From: Chitinophagales bacterium
GTDB lineage: Bacteria > Bacteroidota > Bacteroidia > Chitinophagales > Chitinophagaceae
Direction of reading: 5' to 3'
DNA length: 64,000 nt
Assembly: GCA_021323755.1 (NCBI GenBank)
Contig: JAJPKJ010000012.1
Coordinates: forward strand, 186,001 to 250,000
Position 1 is the stretch's first letter, and each line of letters begins with the position of its first letter. A program made the translations under genes and the position numbers. Under the pieces are notes generated by a model that was given only the letters and a program-made list of their open reading frames with translations, was not told where the DNA came from and searched no databases. Shown here in pieces: positions 6,024 to 11,167 of the stretch.

Positions 6024-7280
6024 TTATAATATTCCGGCAAGTTCTAAACTTTTCTTTCTAAGTTTTCTCACTTCAATATCTTCAATGATCGGTTCAGGAG
6101 CAAGAATAAGCGAAGTATTATTTTCTTTCCACCAGGTATTTTCTTTGATATAATTAAAGTGAATTACGCCAACAAGATATTTGCGATCAGCATCGGAATG
6201 CCATTCTTCGATCCACTCAAATTTTTCTTTTGGAATATATTTCAGCTCATCAAAACTCACGTACACTTTCACATAGAAATCATTGGTGAGTATATTTGGT
6301 TTGTGATGATATAATTTTTTATACTCGTATTTGTATTGATAGCGCAATGCAGACAGATCACTTAATACTGCGGACGCGGTAGGAAAACTTCCGGCACCTT
6401 TTCCATAAAAAAATTGTTTGTCCGCAAACCCGCTTTCAATTACCACACCATTGTATTCATTCCGTACAAAAGTGAGATGGTCATCATGCTTTACAAATTG
6501 TGGTAACACAAACGCGGCAACATTTCCATTAATGAGTTTTTTTGCCTGCGCTACCAATTTGATATCATAATGTTTTTCTTTCGCAACAACAGCATCCGTT
6601 GATTGAATATTTTGAATGCCGTTAAAAACAATATTATCCGGATGTTCAACAATTCCATAAGCGTGCAATAATAACAATGTCCATTTATTTACGGCGTCAT
6701 AACCTTCAACATCAAGCGATGGATCACTTTCAGCAAAGCCCAACTGCTGTGCCATTAATAATGCACTTTGGAAATCTATTTTTTCCTCAAACATTTTGGT
6801 TAGAATAAAATTGGTTGATCCGTTTACAATTGCTTTAATGGAATGTAGCAGATCATTGTCATAATATTCTTCCAGGTTGCGGATAACAGGAATAGATGCA
6901 CATGCCGCCGCCTCATATAATAAAGAGGTTTGGTATTTTTTTTGTAATCCTAAAAGTTCGGGCAAATAAGTAGCAAGCATTTTTTTGCTGGCGCTTACAA
7001 CCTCTTTCCCATTTTTTATTGCCGTAGAAACAATTTCAAATGCGGGTTCTGTTTCATTGATCACTTCAACGATTACATTAATCTCGGGGTCGTTGAGTAA
7101 AACGTTCTTGTCTGTGGTAAATAATTCAATTGGTGCATCTCTTTTTTTATCCGGGTTTTTAATACAGACTTTTTTTATAGTCGCGTTGAGAGAAGGGGTT
7201 TGCTGCAAAATCTTGTACAACCCTTCGCCAACCGTTCCAAAACCAAATAATCCGATAGTTAACTGCTTATGTGTTTCCAT
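6024..7280 (-). CDS. hom: Homoserine dehydrogenase
   Basis: 418 residues, monofunctional. It reduces aspartate semialdehyde to homoserine with NAD(P)H, the branch point to threonine and methionine. The N-terminal Rossmann loop GLFGFGTVGEG is at about residues 10-20. The catalytic domain shows NGSTNFILTKM, the substrate-site signature ESDPSLDVEGYDAVNK, with the catalytic lysine near its end, and GAGSFPTASAVLSD, which closes the cofactor site. A C-terminal extension of about 90 residues is present, where an ACT-like domain would sit in many homologues, but I cannot recognise ACT motifs in it. It follows metX by 90 bp on the same strand, so homoserine production is co-expressed with its acetylation and sulfhydrylation. 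A strong terminator follows the stop. Confidence 0.93.
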   Translation of the reverse strand: METHKQLTIGLFGFGTVGEGLYKILQQTPSLNATIKKVCIKNPDKKRDAPIELFTTDKNVLLNDPEINVIVEVINETEPAFEIVSTAIKNGKEVVSASKKMLATYLPELLGLQKKYQTSLLYEAAACASIPVIRNLEEYYDNDLLHSIKAIVNGSTNFILTKMFEEKIDFQSALLMAQQLGFAESDPSLDVEGYDAVNKWTLLLLHAYGIVEHPDNIVFNGIQNIQSTDAVVAKEKHYDIKLVAQAKKLINGNVAAFVLPQFVKHDDHLTFVRNEYNGVVIESGFADKQFFYGKGAGSFPTASAVLSDLSALRYQYKYEYKKLYHHKPNILTNDFYVKVYVSFDELKYIPKEKFEWIEEWHSDADRKYLVGVIHFNYIKENTWWKENNTSLILAPEPIIEDIEVRKLRKKSLELAGIL

Positions 7281-7370: not shown

Positions 7371-8423
7371 TCAGTTCGAAGCGGCAAATTTACGCTTCGA
7401 AATTTTATTTGCGTGAATGAATTCGTTAATTAATTGACTGATTGATTCGTACTCCAGTAAAAAACCATCATGCCCAAAATTAGAGGGAATGGTCTTGTAC
7501 GATGCATCTGGAATATTTTTTGCAATAAACTGCTGTTCAACAAGTGGAAAAAGAATATCTGTTTCAATACCAATTGCCAGCGCTTTTGCTGTAATGAGTT
7601 TTAGCGCTTTTTCAATGCTGCCGCGGCCTCTGCCAACATTATGTGAATCCATGCTTTGGCTCAACTTATAATAACTGAATGCATTAAATCGTTTGGCCAA
7701 TTTGTCTCCCTGGTAACGTTGGTAAGATTCGCTTTTGAAATTTTGAATGTTTCCATCATTCTCATCGTGCTGACTCTCTAAATAAGTATCGTAGTGCCGA
7801 TAAGAAAGCAATGCGACAGAGCGAGCTACTTTCATTCCTTCAATTCCGGCAAGATCATTTTTTTCTTTCCAGGATGCGTCAGCTTCTATGCACAATCTTT
7901 GTGAAGCATTGAATGCGATTCCCCATGGCGAATGTTGTGCATTTGTTGCAAGCGGAAAAATAAATTCAAATAAATCAGGTTCTTCAATTGCCCATTCCAA
8001 TAATTGCTGGCCGCCCATTGAACCGCCAATGCCAATGTGAATTTTTTCTATACCTAAAAATTTTCTGAATGGTTGATAGGAGCGGATCATATCCCGAGGC
8101 GTGAAAAAAGGGAAATCGTGATAATATCGGTCATCTGTAAGTGAGCTATGATCTAATGGTCCGATACTCCCATAACAACTTCCCGGCATATTAACGCACA
8201 CAATAAAATATTTTGAAGGATCGAATAACTTTCCTTCACCAACCAGGCCTGGCCACCATTCTGCAGGATCGCTGTTTGCTGTAAGCGCATGAAATATCCA
8301 AACAACATTATCTTTTTTATCATTCAATTCTCCATGCGTGGTATAGGCAAGATGATATTGAGGAAGAATTATTCCAGATTCCAGTTTAAATGGATGTTCG
8401 TGTATGAAAGTTTGGTGCGGCAA
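7371..8423 (-). CDS. metX: Homoserine O-acetyltransferase (TTG start)
   Basis: 350 residues of alpha/beta-hydrolase fold. It moves an acetyl group from acetyl-CoA to homoserine, giving the substrate of MetY. The nucleophile elbow GGSMGGQQ places the catalytic serine at residue 135; the aspartate lies in IETDILFP and the histidine in NFGHDGFLLE. The oxyanion region reads GSCYGSIGP, where GSTGP is more usual. The start is a TTG at 8423: a TGA lies two codons upstream in frame and no ATG occurs before the core of the enzyme, so the rare start is well supported. A 24-bp palindrome ends 15 nt upstream of this start. The gene sits between metY and hom. Confidence 0.93.
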   Translation of the reverse strand: MPHQTFIHEHPFKLESGIILPQYHLAYTTHGELNDKKDNVVWIFHALTANSDPAEWWPGLVGEGKLFDPSKYFIVCVNMPGSCYGSIGPLDHSSLTDDRYYHDFPFFTPRDMIRSYQPFRKFLGIEKIHIGIGGSMGGQQLLEWAIEEPDLFEFIFPLATNAQHSPWGIAFNASQRLCIEADASWKEKNDLAGIEGMKVARSVALLSYRHYDTYLESQHDENDGNIQNFKSESYQRYQGDKLAKRFNAFSYYKLSQSMDSHNVGRGRGSIEKALKLITAKALAIGIETDILFPLVEQQFIAKNIPDASYKTIPSNFGHDGFLLEYESISQLINEFIHANKISKRKFAASN

Positions 8424-8473: not shown

Positions 8474-9847
<1,374 letters not shown>

Positions 9848-9895
9848 TTAATGGGCTTTTAATAAGAAACGATAAAGGTCCTGTAAAGGTTCGGG

Positions 9896-9924
9896 AAAAA
9901 ATTAAAGTATGCCTTGCGGCATAC
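9896..9924 (-). terminator. Attenuator-type intrinsic terminator in the metY leader
   Basis: Read on the minus strand, GTATGCC-GCAA-GGCATAC makes a perfect 7-bp stem closed by a GNRA (GCAA) tetraloop (9907-9924). It is followed directly by TTTAATTTTTTCCC. This is a complete intrinsic terminator about 100 nt upstream of the metY start codon, transcribed toward metY. Its 5' arm overlaps the last Cys codon and the following Met codon of the small leader ORF, and the leader's stop codon lies in the U-tract. It must be read through for metY to be transcribed from the promoter at 10012-10019. Confidence 0.75.
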
Positions 9925-9994
9925 AACAACAGCAACAAATACAACAAATGTTTTGCTGCGGAGGTAAAGAAATATGGTGCTGTTTTGTTTGCAT
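9902..9994 (-). CDS. Cysteine-rich leader peptide of the met operon (30 aa)
   Basis: An ATG at 9994 opens a 30-codon frame ending in TAA at 9902. Residues 1-16 are polar (MQTKQHH...PPQQNI). Residues 17-25 then read CCICCCCCM, seven Cys codons in eight followed by Met, and the end is PQGIL. The Cys24 and Met25 codons form the start of the 5' arm of the terminator at 9907-9924. The layout (short UTR, run of regulatory codons, terminator, biosynthetic gene) is that of ribosome-mediated attenuation. The operon behind it makes homocysteine from sulfide, so cysteine or methionine supply is a logical signal. Cysteine-rich attenuation leaders are known from Actinobacteria; I know of none described for metY in Bacteroidota. 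Rival view: the plus strand here is CAA-rich, so the Cys run might be only a simple-sequence tract. Confidence 0.6.
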   Translation of the reverse strand: MQTKQHHISLPPQQNICCICCCCCMPQGIL

Positions 9995-10011
9995 TAGAGC
10001 TGAATACCCAA

Positions 10012-10019
10012 CAAATTTA
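10012..10019 (-). promoter_or_regulatory. Bacteroidota -7 box for the metY leader transcript
   Basis: TAAATTTG on the minus strand fits the Bacteroidota -7 consensus TAnnTTTG exactly. It ends 17 nt before the leader ATG at 9994, so a start site 5-8 nt downstream gives a 5' UTR of only about 10-12 nt. No clear -33 TTTG is seen at the expected distance. Confidence 0.55.
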
Positions 10020-10279
10020 GTGGACTTTATTAATAATTCATTTTTTTCGGCATTATTTTTTTGAAAAGAATGTTAAGGTTAGCTGATTTTTAAATTGCAG
10101 GCAACCGTTCTGTTTATAATCATGTATTTGGTCTGTTGAATTTTGTCAACAATATTAACACCGACGAATTGTATTTCGATTGTTAATGAAAGGCAAATGC
10201 GAGATCAAAACCAAAGTCGGAACGGTTTTTGAAATTAATTTCTTAACGATGATCGTAATTCTACGTAAAACTACATAAC
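10020..10279. other. Intergenic region between the divergent metY leader and DUF4382 gene
   Basis: 260 bp of AT-rich sequence upstream of both the leader transcript (leftward) and the lipoprotein gene (rightward). I see no further ORF, no SAM-riboswitch signature and no strong hairpin in it. It presumably holds the promoter of the lipoprotein gene, but no box there fits the -7 consensus well. Confidence 0.4.
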
Positions 10280-11167
10280 ATGAAAACTAAAACAACAAGG
10301 CTCTACGCCATTATTGGCGTATTCACTCTCATTTTATTTGGAGCTTGTAACAAAGAAAACTCAATCAACTCCGGATCTAATATTCCGGCAGGGAAATCAA
10401 AGATGTCAATTTATCTGAGCGATGGACCGATCGATTATTACAAAGTATTGGTAGATATCAGGCAGGTTGCGGTGCTTATTGATACAGCTACTTTACAAAA
10501 TGACTCTGATGGTGTTAATCAATGGGATAATAACTATTGTGGTTTTCATCGCGGTCCTGATGACAGATCATTGATCTGGGATACCCTTTCCATCGCCCCC
10601 GGGGTTTATAATCTTCTTGATCTGAGAAACGGTACTGATACACTATTAGGTTCTGGAACCTACCCAACAGGAAAAGTATTGAAAGTAAGAATTACTTTAG
10701 GTTCTGACGATTCTGTTTATACCGATAGTGTAACAAGCTATCCTCTTGTGGTTTTCGGACCTAACCCTTATTTTGACATCAATGTTCGCAGAGAAAATGT
10801 ATTTAGTATTACGAACAATGATTTCAAACTTTGGCTCGACTTTAATTTGGAAAGATCGATTTTCTTTTGGAGCGGAACTTTCTACCTCAAACCATATGTA
10901 GTTGCATTCAATGACATGCATCTTGCAAAAATTGAAGGAGTAGTTTTACCGCCGGGAGCATCTCCGCTTGTTGAAGCCATTAGCAGTACAGACACTTTAT
11001 ATGCAATTCCATATTGGGGTGGCGGTTACATGTTCCGGGGAGTAAATGCGGGAACATACAGCATTTCTATCCTCGGTCACCATGGATATAATGATACCAC
11101 GCTTACCAATATTGTTGTTGACTCAGGTTCAGTAACAAAAGTGCCAACCGTTACTTTACATCAATAG
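10280..11167 (+). CDS. DUF4382 domain lipoprotein
   Basis: 295 residues. The N-terminus has a lipoprotein signal peptide with lipobox LFGAC, so the mature protein starts at the cysteine near residue 23 and should be tethered to a membrane facing the periplasm or cell surface. From about residue 40 comes the DUF4382 pattern MSIYLSDGPIDYYKVLVDI, a family common in Bacteroidota with a beta-sandwich character and no known reaction. The C-terminal 80 residues (IEGVVLPPGASPLV and on to the VNAGTYSISILG part) look like a carboxypeptidase-regulatory-like beta domain. It is a single gene with its own terminator. Function unknown; binding or cell-surface structural roles are the usual guess. Confidence 0.8.
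   Translation: MKTKTTRLYAIIGVFTLILFGACNKENSINSGSNIPAGKSKMSIYLSDGPIDYYKVLVDIRQVAVLIDTATLQNDSDGVNQWDNNYCGFHRGPDDRSLIWDTLSIAPGVYNLLDLRNGTDTLLGSGTYPTGKVLKVRITLGSDDSVYTDSVTSYPLVVFGPNPYFDINVRRENVFSITNNDFKLWLDFNLERSIFFWSGTFYLKPYVVAFNDMHLAKIEGVVLPPGASPLVEAISSTDTLYAIPYWGGGYMFRGVNAGTYSISILGHHGYNDTTLTNIVVDSGSVTKVPTVTLHQ

Follow-up and report, generated by a model that had tools for sequence, protein, structure and literature searches.

A conserved cysteine-rich leader peptide and adjoining hairpin upstream of metY-metX-hom in Bacteroidota, probably a ribosome-mediated attenuator

Attenuators of the his and trp type combine a leader peptide that holds many residues of the regulating amino acid with a terminator-like hairpin placed before the operon. 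In contrast to this type, no alternative antiterminator was identified at the locus described here, and occlusion of the hairpin by the ribosome would have to suffice. Mycobacteria carry poly-cysteine frames that are leaderless, a layout akin to that of the near-leaderless frame in our window (the whole 64,000-nucleotide stretch of DNA that was analysed). These leaderless short ORFs of mycobacteria, in work by Canestrari from 2020, are said to exert their effect on translation. Cysteine-rich leader peptides from Mycobacterium, P. acnes and B. longum (cbs) are described in a passage of an earlier report which, for Mycobacterium, reports the lack of a conserved hairpin able to serve as a terminator (PMC1262725). 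The actinobacterial leaders resemble ours in that a short frame with a series of Cys codons close to its end precedes genes of cysteine metabolism; ours differs in having a conserved hairpin that holds or adjoins the stop codon, and in belonging to another phylum and another gene, metY (PMC1262725). In Rhodobacterales, ribosome-mediated attenuation has been proposed for the uORFC-8-2 motif found before cysS. The relevant section of that study depicts conserved Cys codons within a stem followed by an intrinsic terminator, as here, but with two tandem Cys codons, two prominent stems, a U-run in all cases, a cysteinyl-tRNA synthetase as target and a home in the Alphaproteobacteria (PMC8632094).

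Within the Bacteroidota, a passage on Flavobacterium psychrophilum sees hints that operons for amino acids are preceded by attenuators of the leader peptide kind, leaving cysteine unnamed, with a case possible in its supplement (PMC9723704), and one on B. thetaiotaomicron mentions sORFs that resemble leader peptides (PMC7366714). No described cysteine attenuator from this phylum was found in the literature covered, subscription papers and supplements lying outside its scope. Cysteine attenuators as such are already known in Actinobacteria and Rhodobacterales; what sets the present element apart is the unusual hairpin with the stop codon in its loop and, in relatives, the presence of a SAM-I riboswitch as partner. 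The latter (RF00162), a SAM-binding element found upstream of metY in many relatives, has no match above the gathering score in the window or in the whole genome to which the window belongs.

The locus reads on the minus strand. Every element named in the initial annotation (box, short ORF, Cys run, hairpin, U-rich tract, CAGCAA/TTGCTG pairing and distance to metY) is present where that annotation had placed it:

10012 to 10019, minus strand: -7 box TAAATTTG, read directly, which we take to be of the Bacteroidota type
9902 to 9994, minus strand: leader ORF of 30 codons (9994-9902), MQTKQHHISLPPQQNICCICCCCCMPQGIL followed by a stop, near-leaderless, its start 17 nt past the end of the box
9923 to 9946, minus strand: Cys codon run CCICCCCC, residues 17-24, from the translation and the family frame test
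9930 to 9958, minus strand: CAGCAA/TTGCTG, which may form a further hairpin upstream, across the first Cys codons, and is paired in the predicted fold
9907 to 9924, minus strand: hairpin GTATGCC-GCAA-GGCATAC, candidate attenuator terminator, from the fold, the terminator scan and pairing in the family
9896 to 9906, minus strand: U-rich tract TTTAATTTTTT, directly 3' of the hairpin and containing the leader stop codon (9904-9902)
9797 to 9895, minus strand: untranslated spacer between leader and metY, read directly
8474 to 9796, minus strand: metY, O-acetylhomoserine sulfhydrylase (TIGR01326, 691.6 bits, cut-off 495.1)
7371 to 8423, minus strand: metX, homoserine O-acetyltransferase (TIGR01392, 323.3 bits, below the NCBIfam cut-off of 500)
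6024 to 7280, minus strand: hom, homoserine dehydrogenase (NF004976, 310.9 bits, cut-off 205)

Residues 17-25 of the leader peptide read CCICCCCCM, and the 5' arm of the hairpin begins within the Cys24 codon, at its second base. The metY ATG is at 9796 (minus strand), about 105 nt downstream of the leader stop.

We propose that this arrangement constitutes a ribosome-mediated, cysteine-responsive attenuator of metY-metX-hom, a reading to which we assign a probability of about 0.68. Transcription would begin a few bases past the -7 box, and a ribosome would load immediately at the near-leaderless start codon. A shortage of Cys-tRNA would make this ribosome stall at the last Cys codons and cover the 5' arm of the hairpin, and RNA polymerase would continue into metY. 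When cysteine is ample, the ribosome would run on to the stop codon, within the hairpin or directly after it, and leave; the hairpin would then form and most transcripts would end, those of the window at the U-rich stretch 9906-9896. Homocysteine made by MetY would be converted to cysteine by cystathionine beta-synthase and an enzyme of the cystathionine gamma-synthase/lyase type, hence the sensing of cysteine. We infer the start of transcription, the stalling, the termination, the direction of the response and the pathway. One point against the proposal is that a ribosome following the polymerase closely might occlude the hairpin on its own, which requires its release to be fast.

Comparison among relatives supplies the frame, its Cys codons, the hairpin, their fixed arrangement and the gene content. 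We used 80 metY loci from named genomes and searched 195 genomes of the family, only 89 of which contain metY at an E-value of 1e-100 or better; 87 of the 89 were retrieved (G075 and G076 were left out). Removal of 24 duplicates from 168 upstream regions left 144, the window included, 139 of which measure at least 330 nt. In each we looked for a short frame with its end 60-200 nt upstream of metY, Cys being counted per 9 codons. Frames with at least 3, 4, 5 and 6 Cys in 9 codons were present in 86, 72, 53 and 23 of the 139 regions, as against 107, 9, 1 and 0 of 1390 dinucleotide shuffles and 40, 10, 3 and 1 of the 139 reverse strands. A strong frame (at least 4 Cys in 9 codons) is missing from 67 of the 139 metY upstream regions, about half, and a genome of the same genus (G035, locus L014) has metY without a leader.

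The hairpin was located in 90 regions, subsets of which served for the terminator (75), profile (70), codon (62) and openness (57) analyses. Among the 496 codons that make up the eight positions before the hairpin in the 62 anchored loci, which were partly chosen for their Cys, we counted 204 TGT, 71 TGC, 1 TGA and no TGG. Third positions of the Cys columns vary between T and C and hardly ever show A or G, a result that the partial selection of loci by Cys content favours. The N-terminal half of the leader varies freely; the Cys run adjoining the hairpin is kept. Alignment of the relatives, inspected for loss of the frame, of Cys identity or of the hairpin, brought no refutation on these counts. 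The cis-acting Cys leader peptide that the initial annotation had suggested for metY-metX-hom is borne out: in many relatives the frame and the identity of the Cys residues are kept, with synonymous TGT/TGC changes and a conserved hairpin adjacent. We regard a real, conserved, cysteine-specific leader peptide element as very probable. A phylum-wide search with a model of the hairpin matched 15 of 395 genomes. Two of the matches were the window's genome and a family locus known beforehand; judged by eye the rest are mostly noise, apart from one clear new case, L179, under strict filters that make misses likely. In the distant family concerned (L179, L247) a Cys leader precedes CoA_binding_2, metY, OsmC and metX (536-4246 in L247).

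Upstream of the frame, 57 loci, the window among them, show AAAGTCYAC before the box and a weak TTTnG 21-25 nt upstream, the core letters of the box being fixed by the pattern search. The box and an in-frame ATG are both present in 59 of 68 loci, and the distance from the end of the box to the first such ATG is 5-40 nt (30 nt or less in 58 of the 59). Because this ATG is so near the box, from which the start site is deduced, the leader mRNA is probably leaderless or nearly so. AAAGTCYAC (10020-10028 in the window) and a TnGnGTA after the box are conserved in relatives; together they resemble an inverted repeat with mismatches and may form an operator.

The commonest family form of the hairpin is GUAUGCC-GUAA-GGCAUAC, entered from the last Cys codon, and its loop supplies the UAA at which the frame stops. 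In other forms, such as that of the window with its GCAA loop, the frame extends across the stem, its stop following a few bases on at most. A hairpin search that looked for ATG in the 5' arm and was blind to the position of the stop gave a row for 49 of 81 regions and none for 32. The leader stop fell in the loop in 30 of the 49 and in or just past the 3' arm in 15, together 45; three of the four exceptions are unrelated hairpin picks. This is a fairer count than a separate one that placed the stop near the hairpin in 68 of 68 cases, which is biased, as that search looked for hairpins near the stop. For the alignment, 21 of the 90 hairpin loci were dropped by eye as unrelated or diverged and 67 of the remaining 69 were aligned, and the figures hold for this chosen set: 91.3% of stem cells are paired over 65 distinct rows, against at most 41.3% when the partner is slid, and the stem is kept through changes from C-G to G-C (L042, L050, L062) and to U-A (L016). 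Covariation is weak. Both sides change at a single pair, in 4 rows and in about two events; one covarying pair compares with a shuffle mean of 1.1 (406 of 500 shuffles have as many pairs), while 13 of the 500 equal the observed number of cells and 11 the covariation score.

The U-rich tract that the initial annotation had noted behind the hairpin exists in the window, where hairpin and tract together pass crude terminator scans, but a strong U-tract is no feature of the family: by a crude test for intrinsic terminators, the hairpin qualifies in only 25 of 75 loci, a few unrelated hairpin picks counted among the 75. The tail that follows is A/T-rich and nearly G-free in the family, with G at 4% or less at each position from +9 to +21 relative to the start of the loop (70 anchored loci), and a terminator-like site further downstream is found in 19 of 75 loci compared with 16 of 225 mononucleotide shuffles. 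One could envision a Cys leader with a different output, in which the Cys hairpin (hairpin 1) would be a device for pausing or release, and termination would take place with the assistance of Rho/NusG in the G-poor stretch, or at a later hairpin. The unconserved U-tract, the scarcity of G and the enriched downstream sites all fit this view. However, the window's hairpin and T-tract form the sole terminator-like site found in 9700-10300 (shuffles give a mean of 0.3, sd 0.5), and an ungapped anchored profile shows hairpin 1 to be far better conserved than anything downstream of it. We hold this alternative to be rather unlikely.

An antiterminator mutually exclusive with the hairpin was sought by eye in the family leaders, and none of general occurrence was found, complementarity of the 5' end being confined to some clades. 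There, the pairing between the 5' end and the segment behind the hairpin (TAGAGTA/TACTCTA) looks real, and over 81 loci the mean stem score is 12.97 versus 12.08 for crossed pairs, a value equalled by 1 of 2000 permutations. As a general device this long-range pairing was rejected, being weak in many loci, that of the window among them. Complementarity between the bases at the transcript 5' end and those just after the hairpin was noted in L020, L021, L027, L035, L064, L079 and others, with letters that differ by clade. A second hairpin of intrinsic-terminator type, with T5-T6, is seen some 20 nt past the Cys hairpin in L042, L045, L062 and L132.

Translational attenuation in the mycobacterial style would have the stalled ribosome free the metY start from a sequestering structure. 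The near-leaderless poly-Cys frame matches the mycobacterial layout, and the predicted openness of the metY start changes by more than 0.1 in 4 of 57 leaders, for example from 0.70 to 0.94 in L045. In the other 53, the window included, placing a ribosome on the last Cys codon shifts the predicted value by 0.1 or less; the mean over positions -25 to -1 is 0.65 with the leader free and 0.66 with the ribosome stalled, the corresponding values for the window being 0.63 and 0.64. In the predicted folds of these 53, no sequestering structure that a stalled ribosome would open is apparent, and we judge this mode of action very improbable. Since a stalled ribosome hardly alters the openness of metY, termination of transcription is the favored output, possibly with help from Rho/NusG in relatives, and transcription attenuation is the likely function of the element. 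A further idea is that the frame serves to make its peptide, which would bind thiols or metals as its high Cys content might suggest; it must be considered highly improbable, for the Cys run is kept beside the hairpin while the N-terminal half is free to differ, the placement of the stop is tied to the hairpin, and searches with three of the peptides yielded nothing in NCBIfam and, in Pfam, a single hit at chance level, below its cut-off (13.6 versus 32.1 bits).

In the window, the fold of the 110-nt leader is 3.55 sd lower than that of dinucleotide shuffles, 0 of 200 being as good. The CCxCC pattern TGYTGYNNNTGYTGY has 39 matches in the genome, among which two overlapping ones in the leader and one at L234 are the only ones to lie outside open frames of at least 100 codons in any frame. 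The covariance model of the element scores 54.2 bits at the window leader, which is in its training set, and at most 17.4 elsewhere in the genome; neither this model nor the Cys-pattern search found a second leader copy there. The leader region is rich in TTG, yet a chance stretch of simple CAA/TTG sequence is extremely unlikely, given that 72 of 139 regions have a Cys-rich frame and 9 of 1390 shuffles do, and given the uniqueness of the leader within its genome by the covariance model.

Sensing of methionine, which the initial annotation had entertained alongside that of cysteine, finds no support in the window's family. In L039, L061 and L064 the hairpin stands in a different frame; the Cys run still abuts it and Cys-Met-Pro is lost. 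On account of these frame-shifted hairpins, hairpin and Cys run seem to be maintained independently of each other, each in its own right, which does not hold for the Met codon; the latter looks like a by-product of the hairpin sequence. ATG accounts for 16 of the 496 codons in the eight positions before the hairpin (raw count), and methionine was discarded as a sensed residue in this family.

The presence of Cys codons before a "methionine" operon may find its explanation in the gene content of the window genome, whose completeness is 99.81%. Five genes of the PALP family are above the cut-off (one further row, the sixth, represents a fragment adjacent to one of the five). P0001, of 453 aa, is of the cystathionine beta-synthase type, with a full-length match of 477.9 bits to TIGR01137 (cut-off 510.25) and a CBS domain. 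Three others, above their cut-offs, are IlvA (threonine ammonia-lyase), TrpB (tryptophan synthase beta) and ThrC (threonine synthase); the remaining one, L195, matches no NCBIfam model at 1e-40 and seems to resemble an ACC deaminase. No separate cysteine synthase was recognised among the PALP-family genes examined, and the best match to a serine acetyltransferase in the genome is 41.1 bits. L197 is above the cut-off for cystathionine gamma-synthase and close to the bifunctional gamma-lyase model. Because an enzyme of the cystathionine beta-synthase type is present and neither cysteine synthase nor serine acetyltransferase was recognised, the homocysteine made by MetY is probably a precursor of cysteine; to judge from gene content, cysteine is probably made from homocysteine in this genome. 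The MetZ-like L199 (524.9 bits, cut-off 522) could be a second source of homocysteine, which counts against this scheme. The Cys codons would be explained by homocysteine from MetY probably feeding cysteine, and, if the proposal is true, bacteria with the leader are predicted to treat MetY as a cysteine entry step.

Among 87 family genomes, the leader is present in 14 with and 25 without a cysE-like gene and absent from 35 with and 13 without (Fisher p = 0.001), cysE-like denoting an E-value of 1e-30 or better, with no gene reaching the curated cut-off. The trend persists at the level of 49 genera, where it is not significant (p 0.07-0.08; kinship is otherwise ignored). The cystathionine beta-synthase model at 1e-60 matched 186 of 195 family genomes, none at the cut-off, and also 12 of 14 control genomes; the search is undiscriminating because it catches cysteine synthases too.

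To place the leader in the phylum, 40 metY upstreams were hand-picked for family spread from 252 genomes with metY. An aptamer of the SAM-I type lies in 35 of the 40 (34 RF00162 and one RF01725, SAM-I/IV). Short frames that start with ATG, GTG or TTG and reach 4 or more Cys in 9 codons were found in 10 of the 40, a raw count over 1.2-kb stretches; in eight of these ten, from three families, the ATG of the Cys frame is 3-9 nt past the aptamer. Two loci of the same families, L254 and L255, keep an ATG at a like distance and have a frame without the Cys run, so that the post-aptamer frame may have a separate function. Within the family of the window, SAM-I occurs within the fetched flank in 48 of 80 relatives, 20 of the 80 having been picked by a SAM-like pattern. 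Layouts vary: L007 and L150, read by eye, have SAM-I with its own terminator-like hairpin, followed by a second promoter and the Cys leader; in L004 a gene resembling cystathionine gamma-synthase/lyase stands between SAM-I and the Cys leader; L013 is an example of SAM-I without a Cys leader, and L003 has a Cys leader and no SAM-I within 3 kb. It is tempting to speculate that metY of Bacteroidota is under a two-input RNA device, a SAM-I aptamer and a Cys leader in series, the two being 3-9 nt apart in some families, where SAM binding could gate entry of the leader ribosome; the window lineage would have lost the SAM half and kept the Cys half under its own promoter. We advance this as a tentative picture, possible but falling short of an even chance. 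If the attenuator proposal is true, a riboswitch and a leader peptide guarding one gene, and combined, separated or lost by family, would offer a compact and testable case. The loci with a Cys-rich frame directly after the SAM-I aptamer are L252, L253, L257-L260, L264 and L265, and no terminator is seen between the two elements. In further families (L272, L277, L278, L286) Met codons are mixed with Cys, and sensing of methionine is not rejected there. The mixed Cys and Met frame stands alone in L272, where no SAM-I was found, and lies upstream of SAM-I in L277, L278 and L286.
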